Shown here: positions 3,716 to 40,274 of the stretch, piece by piece
Layout of the letters: the number at the start of each line of letters is the position of its first letter
Position numbering within the stretch: the first letter of the stretch is position 1
Source of the DNA: Methanomicrobiales archaeon
GTDB taxonomy: Archaea > Halobacteriota > Methanomicrobia > Methanomicrobiales > JACTUA01
DNA length: 64,000 bases
NCBI GenBank assembly: GCA_015660865.1
Contig: JACTUA010000005.1
Coordinates: 62,001-126,000, forward strand
Direction of reading: 5' to 3'
Notes under the pieces: generated by a model
Seen by the model: the letters and a program-made list of their open reading frames with translations, nothing else
Databases searched by the model: none
What the model was told of the DNA's origin: nothing
Made by a program: the position numbers and the translations under genes

Positions 3716-4898
3716 CGTTGATTACCTTCTCCGTGACGCAGGTGACATTCTCGAAGGAGGTGTCCAGGATGGACTCGACCTCGTACGAGATGGTCTTGAA
3801 GCTCGCCCCGGGCTTTGGGAGGATCTGTGCGCTTGCAACGAGAGGCTGGTCGATGGGGTTCCCGATCTGGGAGAGGATCCGGATGTAGATCTCCTCGATC
3901 CCCTCCACCTTCTCCACGCACTCCCGGGCGACCTGCGTGGAGAGGAGGTTGTAGATCTTCCCGATATGGTTGATGGGGTTCTTCCCGCTCGTCGCCTCCA
4001 TGGACATGGGCCGGTTGGGCGTGATGAGGCCGTTGCACCGGTTCCCCCGGCCGACTGACCCGTCGTCCCCCATCTCGGCCGAGGTCCCGATAACCGTGAG
4101 AAAGACCGACCCGGTATCCGGGTTGTCGGCGGTGTTCACCTCGACCATCACCTCGCGGTTCGTATGCCGGCGGGCCACCTTCTCCAGCCCCGCCTGCATC
4201 ATCTCCTTGATTTCCAGGTACTCGTGGATGCCGGAGCAGTAGCGCCCCACCATGGCGCATGCCAGGGTGATCTTGATGATCTCCCCGTCCCGGAGGGCCA
4301 TGATCTTCACGTCCTGGCCGATGGCAGGGCACTTCTTCCTGAGGGGACCATCGATGTGTTCAGAGAGGGCGAGAACGATGGTCTCGGCCTCAGAGAAAGG
4401 GGCATGGCCCACGCCGAATGAGGTGTCGTTGGCCCGGGGCTTGTTGTCCTGGCAGGGCCTGAAGACATCGCGGAGGTCGGTGGATCCCACCCCGAGGCGG
4501 CAGTCGACGATGACGTCCCGGTCGAGGTCCGCGTTCGTGAGGGTGGAGCGGAGGTAATCCCGTGCCGCCTTCACGGCGACCGCATCGGTGGGTATGTGGA
4601 TCCCGTTGAACTGCTTCGTGGCCCGGCCGACGAGGAGGACGTAGATGGGCTTGATGACCTTTCCCCCGCCGAAGGCGGGGATGGTCTCCCCCCCCACCAC
4701 CTCGCCCTGGTCGGTGTTGTGGTGGAGAACGGCACCGCACTCCTCGATGTAGGCCCTGCTAAGGGCACGGCTCACCGATTCGGCGATCCCGTCCATGAGG
4801 CTGTCGGGGTGGCCGATCCCCTTCCGTTCCACGAGCTCGATCCGCTGCTGTTCGATGGGCGTCTGATCGAGGGCTTCCACGCGAATATTCCTGCTCAT
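3696..4898 (-). CDS. mat: Archaeal S-adenosylmethionine synthetase
   Basis: A 400-residue archaeal-type methionine adenosyltransferase, which makes S-adenosylmethionine from methionine and ATP. The archaeal family differs strongly from bacterial MetK. Seen here are [17 protein letters not shown] near the N-terminus, [14 protein letters not shown], and the C-terminal [15 protein letters not shown] block, at full family length. S-adenosylmethionine would also feed the radical-SAM proteins in this window (AhbC, AhbD, Mmp10). The 52-base gap from dacZ holds a weak TTAAAT element (rev. strand, ~4950), so mat-hisGAB may have its own promoter. Confidence 0.95.
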
Positions 4899-35921: not shown

Positions 35922-36956
35922 ATGTCCATGAGAACATTCCCCGCATCCATCCTCGCTGCCGCGTGCATCGCGGCTGTCTTGCTGGCGGGCTGTACGGGAC
36001 CCGGGACCCAACCACCCCTACCCACTCCTGCGCCTACACCTTCGCCGGCACAGGCGCCGGTACCTGCCGAGTATCATTCCTTTGACCAGACGAATAACGG
36101 GGAGACCTACAACGTCTCCCCTGACGCCGAGCTCCAGCTCCGGCTCCCGGAGAACCCGACGACCGGATTCACCTGGAATCTCTCGGTCACACCAGGCATC
36201 TCTATCCTGAACGATACCTACATCCCTGACGACACATCGGGGAAGCTGGTAGGGGCTGGCGGGACCCATGTCTGGAACCTGAAAGCGATCGGGCCGGGTG
36301 ACCAGGGTATCTCAGGCGTCTACCGTCGGCCGTGGGAACCAGCAACCGCAACTGCGACCAGGTTCAGCCTCTCCCTTATCGTCGGGGAGAGCTCATGCGT
36401 CGCGAATGTCTGCACGCTCCCGGCCGTACCATCCACTGTGCCGGCGCGGTTCCATGTGTATACAGAAGCAGACAATGGGAAGACCGTGCAGGAGCCCGTC
36501 GGTGAGACCTTCAGTGTCCGGCTCCAGGAGAACCCGACGACAGGGTATTCATGGAACCTGAGTGTCCCGAATGGGCTCAGGATCTCCAGGGACGAGTACA
36601 TTCCCTCGTCAACCGGCGGGCAGATGGTTGGAACAGGCGGTATCCGCTCCTTCACCCTTGTCACGTTGACCCCGGGCATCCAGACGCTCATAGCTGAATA
36701 CCGGCGGCCCTGGGTCGCATCAGGCACGGTCACATACCAGAACCTCGAGGGCGGGTTCTACGGGATCATCGGGGATGACGGGAAGAAGTACGAGCCCCTG
36801 AACCTGGATGCGAAATACCAGAAGGACGGGCTCCGTGTCGCCTTCGATGCGACCGTCGTCAGGGACGCCGTCAGCACCAGGATGTGGGGAACCCCCGTGA
36901 ACCTGGCGCAGGTCGAGGTGATCCCGGAATTCACGCTGACCGTGATGGTGGAGTGA
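35922..36956 (+). CDS. Secreted lipoprotein with two chagasin (I42) inhibitor domains
   Basis: A 344-residue lipoprotein with signal AACIAAVLLAGC (lipid on Cys) and a Pro/Thr linker. Two chagasin-type cysteine-protease inhibitor domains follow. Each has the NPTTG(F/Y)xW loop (ENPTTGFTWNLS, ENPTTGYSWNLS), the G(A/T)GG loop, and the RPW loop (YRRPWEPA, YRRPWVAS). A C-terminal segment (GGFYGIIGDDGKKYEPLNLDAK...RMWGTPVNL) is separate. These three loops plug papain-like proteases. AAAGGAGAT before the ATG is a good ribosome site. The natural target is unknown. Confidence 0.88.
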   Translation: MSMRTFPASILAAACIAAVLLAGCTGPGTQPPLPTPAPTPSPAQAPVPAEYHSFDQTNNGETYNVSPDAELQLRLPENPTTGFTWNLSVTPGISILNDTYIPDDTSGKLVGAGGTHVWNLKAIGPGDQGISGVYRRPWEPATATATRFSLSLIVGESSCVANVCTLPAVPSTVPARFHVYTEADNGKTVQEPVGETFSVRLQENPTTGYSWNLSVPNGLRISRDEYIPSSTGGQMVGTGGIRSFTLVTLTPGIQTLIAEYRRPWVASGTVTYQNLEGGFYGIIGDDGKKYEPLNLDAKYQKDGLRVAFDATVVRDAVSTRMWGTPVNLAQVEVIPEFTLTVMVE

Positions 36957-37141
36957 AGGGAGAGAAAACCCCTATCTATTTTAAAAATCCTTACCGGAGA
37001 TTCTTCATCTCATCTCAATCTGCCCCCTTCCTTTTCCATTCCCCAACTCAAAGGCAGCCACACTACAGCAGGCCTGATGGGTCAATGGCCGGGGAACCCT
37101 CTCCAGAAAGATTAATGGGACGATGGTGCAATCATGCCACC

Positions 37142-38722
37142 ATGACGGGAAAACCGTTGGTTCCTGCGATTTTTCTTCTTCTCGTATTTTATACAGTCCT
37201 CGCAGCCTGCACGGTCGGACCCGGGGGGGTGCAACCGGCACCCACGCCGGCTCCAGGGCCGGTAATTCCGGCCGGGACGACTGCTGCGCCGTCAGGGTAC
37301 GGGGCAGTGACATCGCCTCCTGGAGGACTGGATCTCACCAACCAGAACTCGCCCCTCGCCGCCACCTTCACCGGGTCTTCCTCGGGAACGCCCCTGAAGA
37401 CACCGGGGCCGAGGATCGGGCTGAAACTCGTGGCAGGCGGGCTCAGCTCACCGATGATGCTGACCGGTGCCCCGGATACCAGCGGCCGCCTCTTTATCGT
37501 GGACCAGGTCGGGGTGGTCAGGATCGTCACGCGTGACGGGAACCTCCTCGCGAAGCCTTTCCTGGATATCCGGGACAGGATGGTCGCACTCGTGCCTGCG
37601 TACGATGAACGCGGCCTGATCAGTATTGCATTCCACCCGAACTTCGAGAAGAACGGGCGCTTCTTTGTCTTTTACAGCGCTCCGCTCAGGTCCAGTGGTC
37701 CGGCGGGCTGGAGCTGCACCAACCGGCTCTCCGAGTTCCGGGTTTCTGCGGCGGATCCCGATGTTGCCGACCCGGCGAGCGAACGGATCCTCCTCGAGGT
37801 CGACAAGCCCTCCCAGAATCACAATGGGGGGCAGATCCGGTTTGGCCCCGATGGCTACCTCTATATCCCGCTGGGCGACGGAGGGGGGGCTGATGATACC
37901 GGCCTCGGGCACACGCCGGGGACAGGGAATGCCCAGGATCTGACCACGATCCTGGGAAAAGTATTGAGGATCGACGTGGACTCCAGGAGCCCCGGGAAGG
38001 AGTACGGAATACCCCCGGACAATCCCTTTCTGAATGACAAAGGCATCCCCGCGGAGATCTATGCAATCGGGTTCAGGAACCCCGCCTATGCTTCCTTCGA
38101 TTTCTCCGAGAGCCACCGGTATATCGTCGCATCCGCAGGGCAGCGCCTCTTCGAGTCGATCTTCATCGTGCTTCCGGGCGGCAACTACGGGTGGAACATC
38201 CGGGAGGGGACGCACTGCTTTGATCCGGCCCACGACGCCGGGCCGAAACCGGGTCCCTGCCCCATCACGGGATCGCGGGGTGAACCGATGATCGGCCCCA
38301 TCTTCGAGGGAGGGCATGATCTCGGGAATACCATCGTCGGCGGGCACATCTACCGGGGAAAGGACAATCCCGGTCTCATCGGGAAGTATATCTTTGGATA
38401 CTGGAGCGACAGCTTCTCCGCAGGAAACGGGTCCCTCCTGCTCGCCACCCCGCCAGAGGGATGGGACATCGGCAGGTACCCGGACTCGGTCTCCACGCTC
38501 ACCCCCTACGACAACAGGATGTGGACCGCATCCGAATTCACCATCGCCAATACGCAAAACGGCAGGATCGATGCCTTTGTCCGGGGGTTCGGTGAGGATA
38601 ACCAGCACGAGATCTACGTCATGATCAACGAGAAGGGAGGACCCGATCCCAGCTCCACAACCGGACAGGTTCTGAAGATGGTTCCGGTATCGACACTCCC
38701 CATGGGGAGAGTGGGCTTTTAA
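37142..38722 (+). CDS. Secreted PQQ-dehydrogenase-like beta-propeller lipoprotein
   Basis: A 526-residue protein with lipoprotein signal LLLVFYTVLAAC and a Pro/Thr linker, then a six-bladed propeller of the soluble glucose/sorbosone dehydrogenase family. LTGAPDTSGRLFIVDQVGVVRIV, ERGLISIAFHPNFEKNGRFFVFYS, NHNGGQIRFGPDGYLYIPLGDGGGADD and GNYGWNIREG are characteristic, including the His that acts as base in PQQ enzymes (NHNGG). Methanogens are not known to make PQQ, so the role could be sugar binding or use of scavenged cofactor. The start ATG 37142 is chosen at the signal peptide; the frame is open further upstream. Confidence 0.87.
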   Translation: MTGKPLVPAIFLLLVFYTVLAACTVGPGGVQPAPTPAPGPVIPAGTTAAPSGYGAVTSPPGGLDLTNQNSPLAATFTGSSSGTPLKTPGPRIGLKLVAGGLSSPMMLTGAPDTSGRLFIVDQVGVVRIVTRDGNLLAKPFLDIRDRMVALVPAYDERGLISIAFHPNFEKNGRFFVFYSAPLRSSGPAGWSCTNRLSEFRVSAADPDVADPASERILLEVDKPSQNHNGGQIRFGPDGYLYIPLGDGGGADDTGLGHTPGTGNAQDLTTILGKVLRIDVDSRSPGKEYGIPPDNPFLNDKGIPAEIYAIGFRNPAYASFDFSESHRYIVASAGQRLFESIFIVLPGGNYGWNIREGTHCFDPAHDAGPKPGPCPITGSRGEPMIGPIFEGGHDLGNTIVGGHIYRGKDNPGLIGKYIFGYWSDSFSAGNGSLLLATPPEGWDIGRYPDSVSTLTPYDNRMWTASEFTIANTQNGRIDAFVRGFGEDNQHEIYVMINEKGGPDPSSTTGQVLKMVPVSTLPMGRVGF

Positions 38723-38842
38723 AGAGACCGTGAGGAATGCCACCTATACTTACATTCTTTCCAGCATTCTGCCAGAGGATTGGGGGCTTAAAAATTGAGA
38801 TGAAGAGATATGTTTATCGTGACCGATTGTGATTCTGTCCTT

Positions 38843-39243
38843 ATGCCCAGAATGCCCCGTTATCTGGTGATACCACTCCTTATAGCACTTTGTACAATCT
38901 TCGCAGGCTGCACATATCCCCCCACTCAGACCGCGGCCCCAGGCCCTTCGCCAGCATCGGGAGCAAAGCCGCGGTCCAGGTCTCCAACTTCAGGCTTGTG
39001 CCGGAGTACGGGGAATATATCCCTGGAGAAGGCCACCTCCATTACTACATGGACCTTCCCGCGAACGCCGTTGCCTCACAGCCAGGATTCTTTGTCCCGA
39101 CCACTGATACGAGTTATACCTGGCCGAATGTCCCTCCGGGCACTCACACCTTCACGGTCGAACTGGCCAGCACTGATCACACCCCCCTGCCCCAGCCCGT
39201 GAGCAGGACAGTCACAGTGAAAGTGGTCAGCAAAGCGCCCTGA
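38843..39243 (+). pseudogene. Frameshifted lipoprotein gene, first of a pair
   Basis: The first 43 codons (lipoprotein signal with AGCTYPPTQTAAPGPSP) are identical in DNA to those of the next gene. After 38971 the frame is broken: the downstream domain (VQVSNFRLVPEYG, GEGHLHYYMDLP, YTWPNVPPGTHTFTVELAS, ending VSKAP at 39243) continues in another phase. Compared with copy two, about 40 bases are missing at the joint. The domain itself is intact in its own frame, so the damage is recent or the result of recombination between copies. A sequencing error could mimic the shift but not the missing segment. Confidence 0.75.
38850..38971 (+). repeat. Perfect 122-base direct repeat, copy 1
   Basis: Identical to 39266-39387 at every position (offset 416 bases). 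It covers the signal peptide, lipobox and linker, and ends exactly where the frame of this copy breaks. Confidence 0.9.
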
Positions 39244-39258
39244 TGTAATGTTGCCATT

Positions 39259-39948
39259 ATGCCTGGAATGCCCCGTTATCTGGTGATACCACTCCTTATA
39301 GCACTTTGTACAATCTTCGCAGGCTGCACATATCCCCCCACTCAGACCGCGGCCCCAGGCCCTTCGCCAGCATCGGGAGCAAAGCCGAGCCCAGCGAATG
39401 GTGCCGTACTTCCGGCAGGCGATATTACGGTCTCGGTTAGCGTGAGCAACTTCAAACTGGTTCCCAAATACGGACAGCCATTTGTAGCCGGGGAGGGGCA
39501 TCTCCACTACTACCTGGGAGTGGGGGGACCTGCCACACCAGGGTCATCCGGGGTGATCGCACCGGTGAACTATATCTCCACCACCGAGACCAGCTATACC
39601 TGGGCGGATGTCCCTCCCGGGATCCACACGTTCTCGGTTGAGCTCGCCTATAACGACCATTCCCCGTTCATCCCGCCAGTGTTCAAGACCGTCACCGTGA
39701 CGGTGCTGCCAACCACGGCAACGACCTTCGGAGCTGCCCCGGATATCCGGAGCTGCACCACAGATACTGATTGCGTCGCCGATCAGTGCTGCCACCCGAC
39801 GGACTGCATCAACCGGGCCTATAAACAGGTGTGCACGGTGCTCTGCACGAACGTCTGCCAGGGCCCCATCGACTGCGGTGCCGGACACTGTGGTTGCGTG
39901 AACGGGCAATGCAGCGCCGTCCCTGGCCCGGCATCCTCGAGTCCATGA
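39259..39948 (+). CDS. Secreted lipoprotein with Cys-rich C-terminal domain
   Basis: A 229-residue lipoprotein with signal YLVIPLLIALCTIFAGC. A beta-rich domain (VSNFKLVPKYG, GEGHLHYYLGVG, TSYTWADVPPGIHTFSVELAYNDHSP) is the same domain as in the broken first copy. The last ~65 residues hold about a dozen cysteines (SCTTDTDCVADQCCHPTDC, CGAGHCGCVNGQC), like small eight-cysteine-cluster domains, probably disulfide-linked outside the cell. The role is unknown. The His pair in GHLHYY may bind metal. Confidence 0.8.
   Translation: MPGMPRYLVIPLLIALCTIFAGCTYPPTQTAAPGPSPASGAKPSPANGAVLPAGDITVSVSVSNFKLVPKYGQPFVAGEGHLHYYLGVGGPATPGSSGVIAPVNYISTTETSYTWADVPPGIHTFSVELAYNDHSPFIPPVFKTVTVTVLPTTATTFGAAPDIRSCTTDTDCVADQCCHPTDCINRAYKQVCTVLCTNVCQGPIDCGAGHCGCVNGQCSAVPGPASSSP
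39266..39387 (+). repeat. Perfect 122-base direct repeat, copy 2
   Basis: Second copy of the repeat at 38850-38971. The flanking bases (TTATGCCTG versus TTATGCCCA before the repeat) differ slightly, so the identical block has sharp edges. Confidence 0.9.
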
Positions 39949-39968: not shown

Positions 39969-40274
39969 ATGACGTTCACAAAGGTCGGGTCCGCAATAGA
40001 TCTTTTATATGACAGAATGGTGGGGGTCCAGGCCTCCGGGAAGGAGGTCCTGGTGGCGAAGCTGAAGGACCGGTACTATGCCCTCGGCAACGTGTGCACG
40101 CACAACGGCTGCAGGCTCTCGGGTGGTAAGCTCAGGGACGGGAAAATCCGGTGCCCGTGCCATGGATCTGTCTTCGATCCAGCGAACGGTAAGGTCCTTC
40201 AGGGCCCTGCAGAGAAACCGGTACCCGTCTATCATATCAAGGTCGAGAATGGTTCGATCTGGGTTGATCTCTGA
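39969..40274 (+). CDS. Rieske [2Fe-2S] ferredoxin
   Basis: A 101-residue soluble Rieske protein. The cluster ligands are in CTHNGC (Cys43, His45) and CPCHGS (Cys62, His65), with the fold ending PVYHIKVENGSIWVDL. There is no signal or membrane segment, so it resembles electron carriers for oxygenases or nitrite-reductase small subunits rather than bc1. Its partner is not encoded nearby. GGTGA six bases before the ATG supports the start. Confidence 0.92.
   Translation: MTFTKVGSAIDLLYDRMVGVQASGKEVLVAKLKDRYYALGNVCTHNGCRLSGGKLRDGKIRCPCHGSVFDPANGKVLQGPAEKPVPVYHIKVENGSIWVDL

Follow-up and report, generated by a model that had tools for sequence, protein, structure and literature searches.

A shared 122-base front end and a frameshift in two tandem lipoprotein genes of a Methanomicrobiales archaeon: probable recent gene conversion

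Why would two adjacent lipoprotein genes be identical over their signal regions and diverge sharply beyond them, with one of the two losing its reading frame at the very point where the identity ends? The question is raised by a 64-kb stretch of DNA (the window), bases 62001-126000 of contig C7 (254,351 bases), in the draft genome of a Methanomicrobiales archaeon (1.94 Mb, 9 contigs, 98.98% complete). The genes there run from a chagasin-like I42 protein (35922-36956) through a glucose/sorbosone dehydrogenase-like protein (36884-38722 as listed), which directly neighbors copy 1, to copy 1 itself, copy 2 and, at 39969-40274, a Rieske protein. Copy 2 (39259-39948, forward strand) is intact and encodes a 229-aa lipoprotein with a DUF4399-like domain and a cysteine-rich tail. 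Copy 1, read from its signal peptide on the same strand (38843-39202), gives 119 aa that run out of frame after the shared block and have no Pfam match. A preliminary description saw here either recent gene conversion between the signal regions or a reversible on/off switch by recombination. The finding is real and more than chance, but it is ordinary in kind: routine genome decay, not a switching device.

The shared block is exact, with positions 38850-38971 of copy 1 matching 39266-39387 of copy 2 at 122/122 bases, both on the forward strand, in direct orientation and at an offset of 416 bases. It starts inside codon 3 and covers the signal peptide and the lipobox (FAGC), ending in the linker past the lipobox. 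This block is the longest exact direct repeat of the contig, ahead of repeats of 64 bases (a 59-base tandem array) and 47 bases, and it supplies the only directly repeated 25-mers in the window. A looser block of 144 bases (95% identity) starts 22 bases earlier, and all 7 of its mismatches fall within those 22 bases. The latter span the sequence just 5' of copy 1 together with its first codons (38828-38849, forward strand), which match 39244-39265 at 15/22 bases and lie outside the putative converted tract. No further copy of the 122-base block was found elsewhere in the genome, where it occurs twice in total; together with the lack of any other direct 25-mer repeat in the window, this led us to discard a signal cassette common to many genes. 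An ancestral two-domain gene split by insertion of a 5' segment was also considered on the ground that two relatives (L049 and L050) carry two domains in one frame. This idea fails on the distribution of the mismatches, with 7 in the first 22 bases and 0 in the next 122.

Beyond the block, the domains of the two copies agree at only 165 of 239 DNA bases (69%) and 47 of 84 residues, which bears out the initial observation of identity over signal peptide, lipobox, and linker followed by sharp divergence. Third codon positions differ at 0/41 sites in the block vs 50/84 in the domain, from which we infer that the block was homogenized recently between two old paralogues, as the first of the two early readings had proposed. 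At domain-level divergence, the chance of 122 straight matches would be about 2e-20, and among relatives the signal and linker sequences appear, by eye, more variable than the domain. As in ectopic conversion, local identity exceeds that of the homologous flanks on both sides, namely the domain downstream and the 22 bases upstream. The absence of differences over the 122 bases bounds the divergence since the event at about 2.4% (95% bound), so that the lack of stop codons accumulated since then says little.

The paralogues are older than the tract, according to both the third positions of the domain and, with moderate support, a domain tree of 47 rows, from which domains shorter than 75 residues, identical domains, and the entries L022_123 and L042_434 were left out. 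In this tree, copy 1, copy 2, and the gene of a sister species form a clade (99/92), within which copy 2 pairs with the sister-species gene to the exclusion of copy 1 (95/77); a topology uniting only the two copies was not rejected (p-AU 0.294). Thus, as far as the sequences can tell, the domain duplication looks older than the split from the sister species. The counterpart of copy 2 is the single gene of the sister metagenome-assembled genome (L007:2310-3050; 71% complete), which lies between an I42 gene and a Rieske gene and has a tail of the copy 2 type; this only same-genus relative compared has one copy. Among named genomes, those with the closest relatives of copy 2 are Methanomicrobiales.

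The identity stops at the junction 38971/38972 (forward strand), where 40 bases found in copy 2 at 39388-39427 (forward strand) are missing from copy 1; in copy 2 they encode residues 44-57, at the start of the domain. Past this gap, copy 1 rejoins copy 2 for 5 bases (CGGTC) before normal divergence resumes, and it shows an additional in-frame shortening relative to copy 2 further on. From the present sequence of copy 1, no clear microhomology could be made out at the junction. The protein read from 38843 ends at 39200-39202, and the DUF4399-like domain (38968-39243, forward strand) lies in a different frame, open from a TTG at 38890 to 39243. The early statement that identity ends exactly at a loss of about 40 bases, with the frame lost, is thus confirmed, and the reading frame of copy 1 is disrupted relative to intact relatives, as in a pseudogene. 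The accompanying statement that the rest of the domain is intact needs to be qualified: its frame is open and free of internal stops, but the segment corresponding to residues 44-57, the conserved first domain segment in relatives covering that region, is gone. Copy 2 retains this segment (SPANGAVLPAGDI), and the sister gene has SPADGAVLPAGDI as its counterpart, whereas copy 1 is without it. In copy 2 the region is predicted to be ordered (pLDDT block means of 85 and 94), with strands at 50-52 and 54-59. Since the 40 missing bases encode the first domain segment, restoring the frame would still leave copy 1 with a shortened domain.

The remaining part of copy 1 bears the mark of former constraint. 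Differences between the copies are distributed over the three codon positions as 24, 23, and 50 (p 1.6e-4), those private to copy 1 as 11, 11, and 21 (p 0.025), and copy 1 keeps 22 of the 26 residues that are invariant in six other domains. The third-position bias and the retained residues fit a copy 1 that was, to judge from its codons, constrained as a working gene until recently. Copy 1 could conceivably be working still, with recoding or a different start yielding the domain and no signal peptide in frame, and the open, apparently constrained frame from the TTG at 38890 is what such a reading would call upon. However, that start yields neither signal peptide nor lipobox, the domain is without its first segment, and the constraint speaks of the past rather than proving present use; we regard continued function as very improbable. 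Programmed frameshifting in particular was rejected, as no XXXYYYZ slippery heptamer occurs in 38930-39010.

Taken together, we consider it likely that the locus records a recent, partial ectopic gene conversion between old tandem paralogues, with copy 2 most simply the donor and copy 1 most likely a very young pseudogene. In two long-diverged tandem genes for DUF4399-like lipoproteins, a 122-base stretch from signal peptide to linker would have been converted, and the repaired end of copy 1 would have been joined again some 40 bases downstream of its proper place. Such misplaced 3' rejoining has the merit that one event would give both the identity and the frameshift; under this single-event order, copy 2 would be the donor and the damage would date to the same event. 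By parsimony, then, the transfer probably ran from copy 2 to copy 1. Copy 1 would still encode a lipid-anchored stub that is secreted and ends in nonsense sequence, while the function stays with copy 2. The block is bordered by background-level homology on the 5' side (15/22) and by the 40-base gap on the 3' side. Equally allowed is the alternative order, in which the gap came first and the conversion tract halted at it for want of further homology.

The main rival to conversion is an error of assembly or polishing, in which copy 1 was wrongly given the repeat, or a join at the end of the repeat lost bases, and the cell has two intact, different genes. A break placed exactly at the repeat boundary is what such an error would leave, and the genome is a draft whose contig holds no exact direct repeat above this length, as when assemblies break at longer repeats. 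Nevertheless, the sequence 5' of the block is distinct in each copy, and the defect is a clean 40-base gap and not a homopolymer slip, in a contig free of N, so that we judge an artifact unlikely.

Much less plausible still is the switch proposed in the second early reading, with copy 1 as a gene turned on and off by recombination between the repeats or by a slippage change of frame. Tandem genes that share a perfect direct repeat can recombine at it, and the block does contain a run of six C. Yet the geometry, direct repeats 416 bases apart, implies that recombination would delete the domain of copy 1 rather than toggle it. Recombinational phase variation would call for inverted or cassette repeats that permit reversible exchange; here there is a single direct-repeat pair, with no alternative cassette at the locus and no third copy in the genome. 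The C run is a short one that lies within the intact frame of copy 2, and 38930-39010 holds no slippery heptamer. This half of the preliminary description is not supported. It is just as doubtful that exchange of front ends continues in the population, bringing copy 1 in and out of frame through varying tract lengths; if it did, a surface lipoprotein of the methanogen would be governed by a slow contingency locus.

Whether 5' conversion recurs was looked at in relatives. Among 59 loci scanned, one other contig, G004:C279 (L058), has two separate genes of this kind side by side, and their signal regions are unlike each other. The count of recurrence is therefore 0/1, the comparison covering the L058 pair only. 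In L022 and its twin L026, roughly 2 kb separates two such genes, of which the second matches weakly. Separately, a large protein (L031) carries DUF4399-like domains at 3991-4318 and 4477-4804 that are identical at 325/328 aligned bases, the product of recent tandem duplication or homogenization, and the domain repeats within another gene (L048) agree at 256/312 aligned bases. Such near-identical repeats within single genes are ordinary tandem duplication or homogenization.

Other observations concern the surroundings of these genes. In a genome of the same family, one open frame (L049:1453-3288, G002:C45) fuses two DUF4399-like domains with a glucose/sorbosone dehydrogenase-like domain; this fusion and the dehydrogenase gene adjoining copy 1 suggest an extracellular role common to the two kinds of protein. 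In Methanoculleus (L008:4001-4762, L022:1391-2287), a cupredoxin-like domain follows the DUF4399-like domain in the same protein. Elsewhere on contig C7, outside the window, a 284-base 3' piece of queC (156408-156692; first copy in L067) recurs 1188 bases downstream at 157596-157879 (263/284 identical). A HepT-like gene (157206-157577) separates the two pieces, and the duplication may mark a module inserted at queC.

At most, the locus is a clean snapshot of partial gene conversion breaking one of two tandem methanogen genes, and annotators should mark copy 1 as frameshifted or verify it with reads. As for the protein family, both copies match the Pfam profile PF14347 (DUF4399) across the domain, but with 27.6 bits (E 3.7e-6) for copy 1 and 19.6 bits for copy 2 both remain under the gathering score of 28, hence the name "DUF4399-like". 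Neither the domain of copy 1 nor copy 2 matched NCBIfam. A fold search with the copy 2 model (mean pLDDT 65) gave nothing at E 0.001 or better, the weaker entries including Ig-like, PKD, and CopC. Copy 2 differs from PF14347 proteins by its added cysteine-rich tail, otherwise present only in the sister gene among 18 aligned rows.

Gene conversion between methanogen paralogues is already known, as described for mtrA-1 and mtrA-2 in Methanomicrobiales and Methanococcales, where it has been long-lasting and covers the MtrA domain (PMC4632066). Both cases involve tandem paralogues of methanogens in which one part is homogenized and others are still different. As far as that account goes, what differs here is the converted part, signal peptide and linker rather than the MtrA domain, and the broken outcome, with copy 1 out of frame (PMC4632066).
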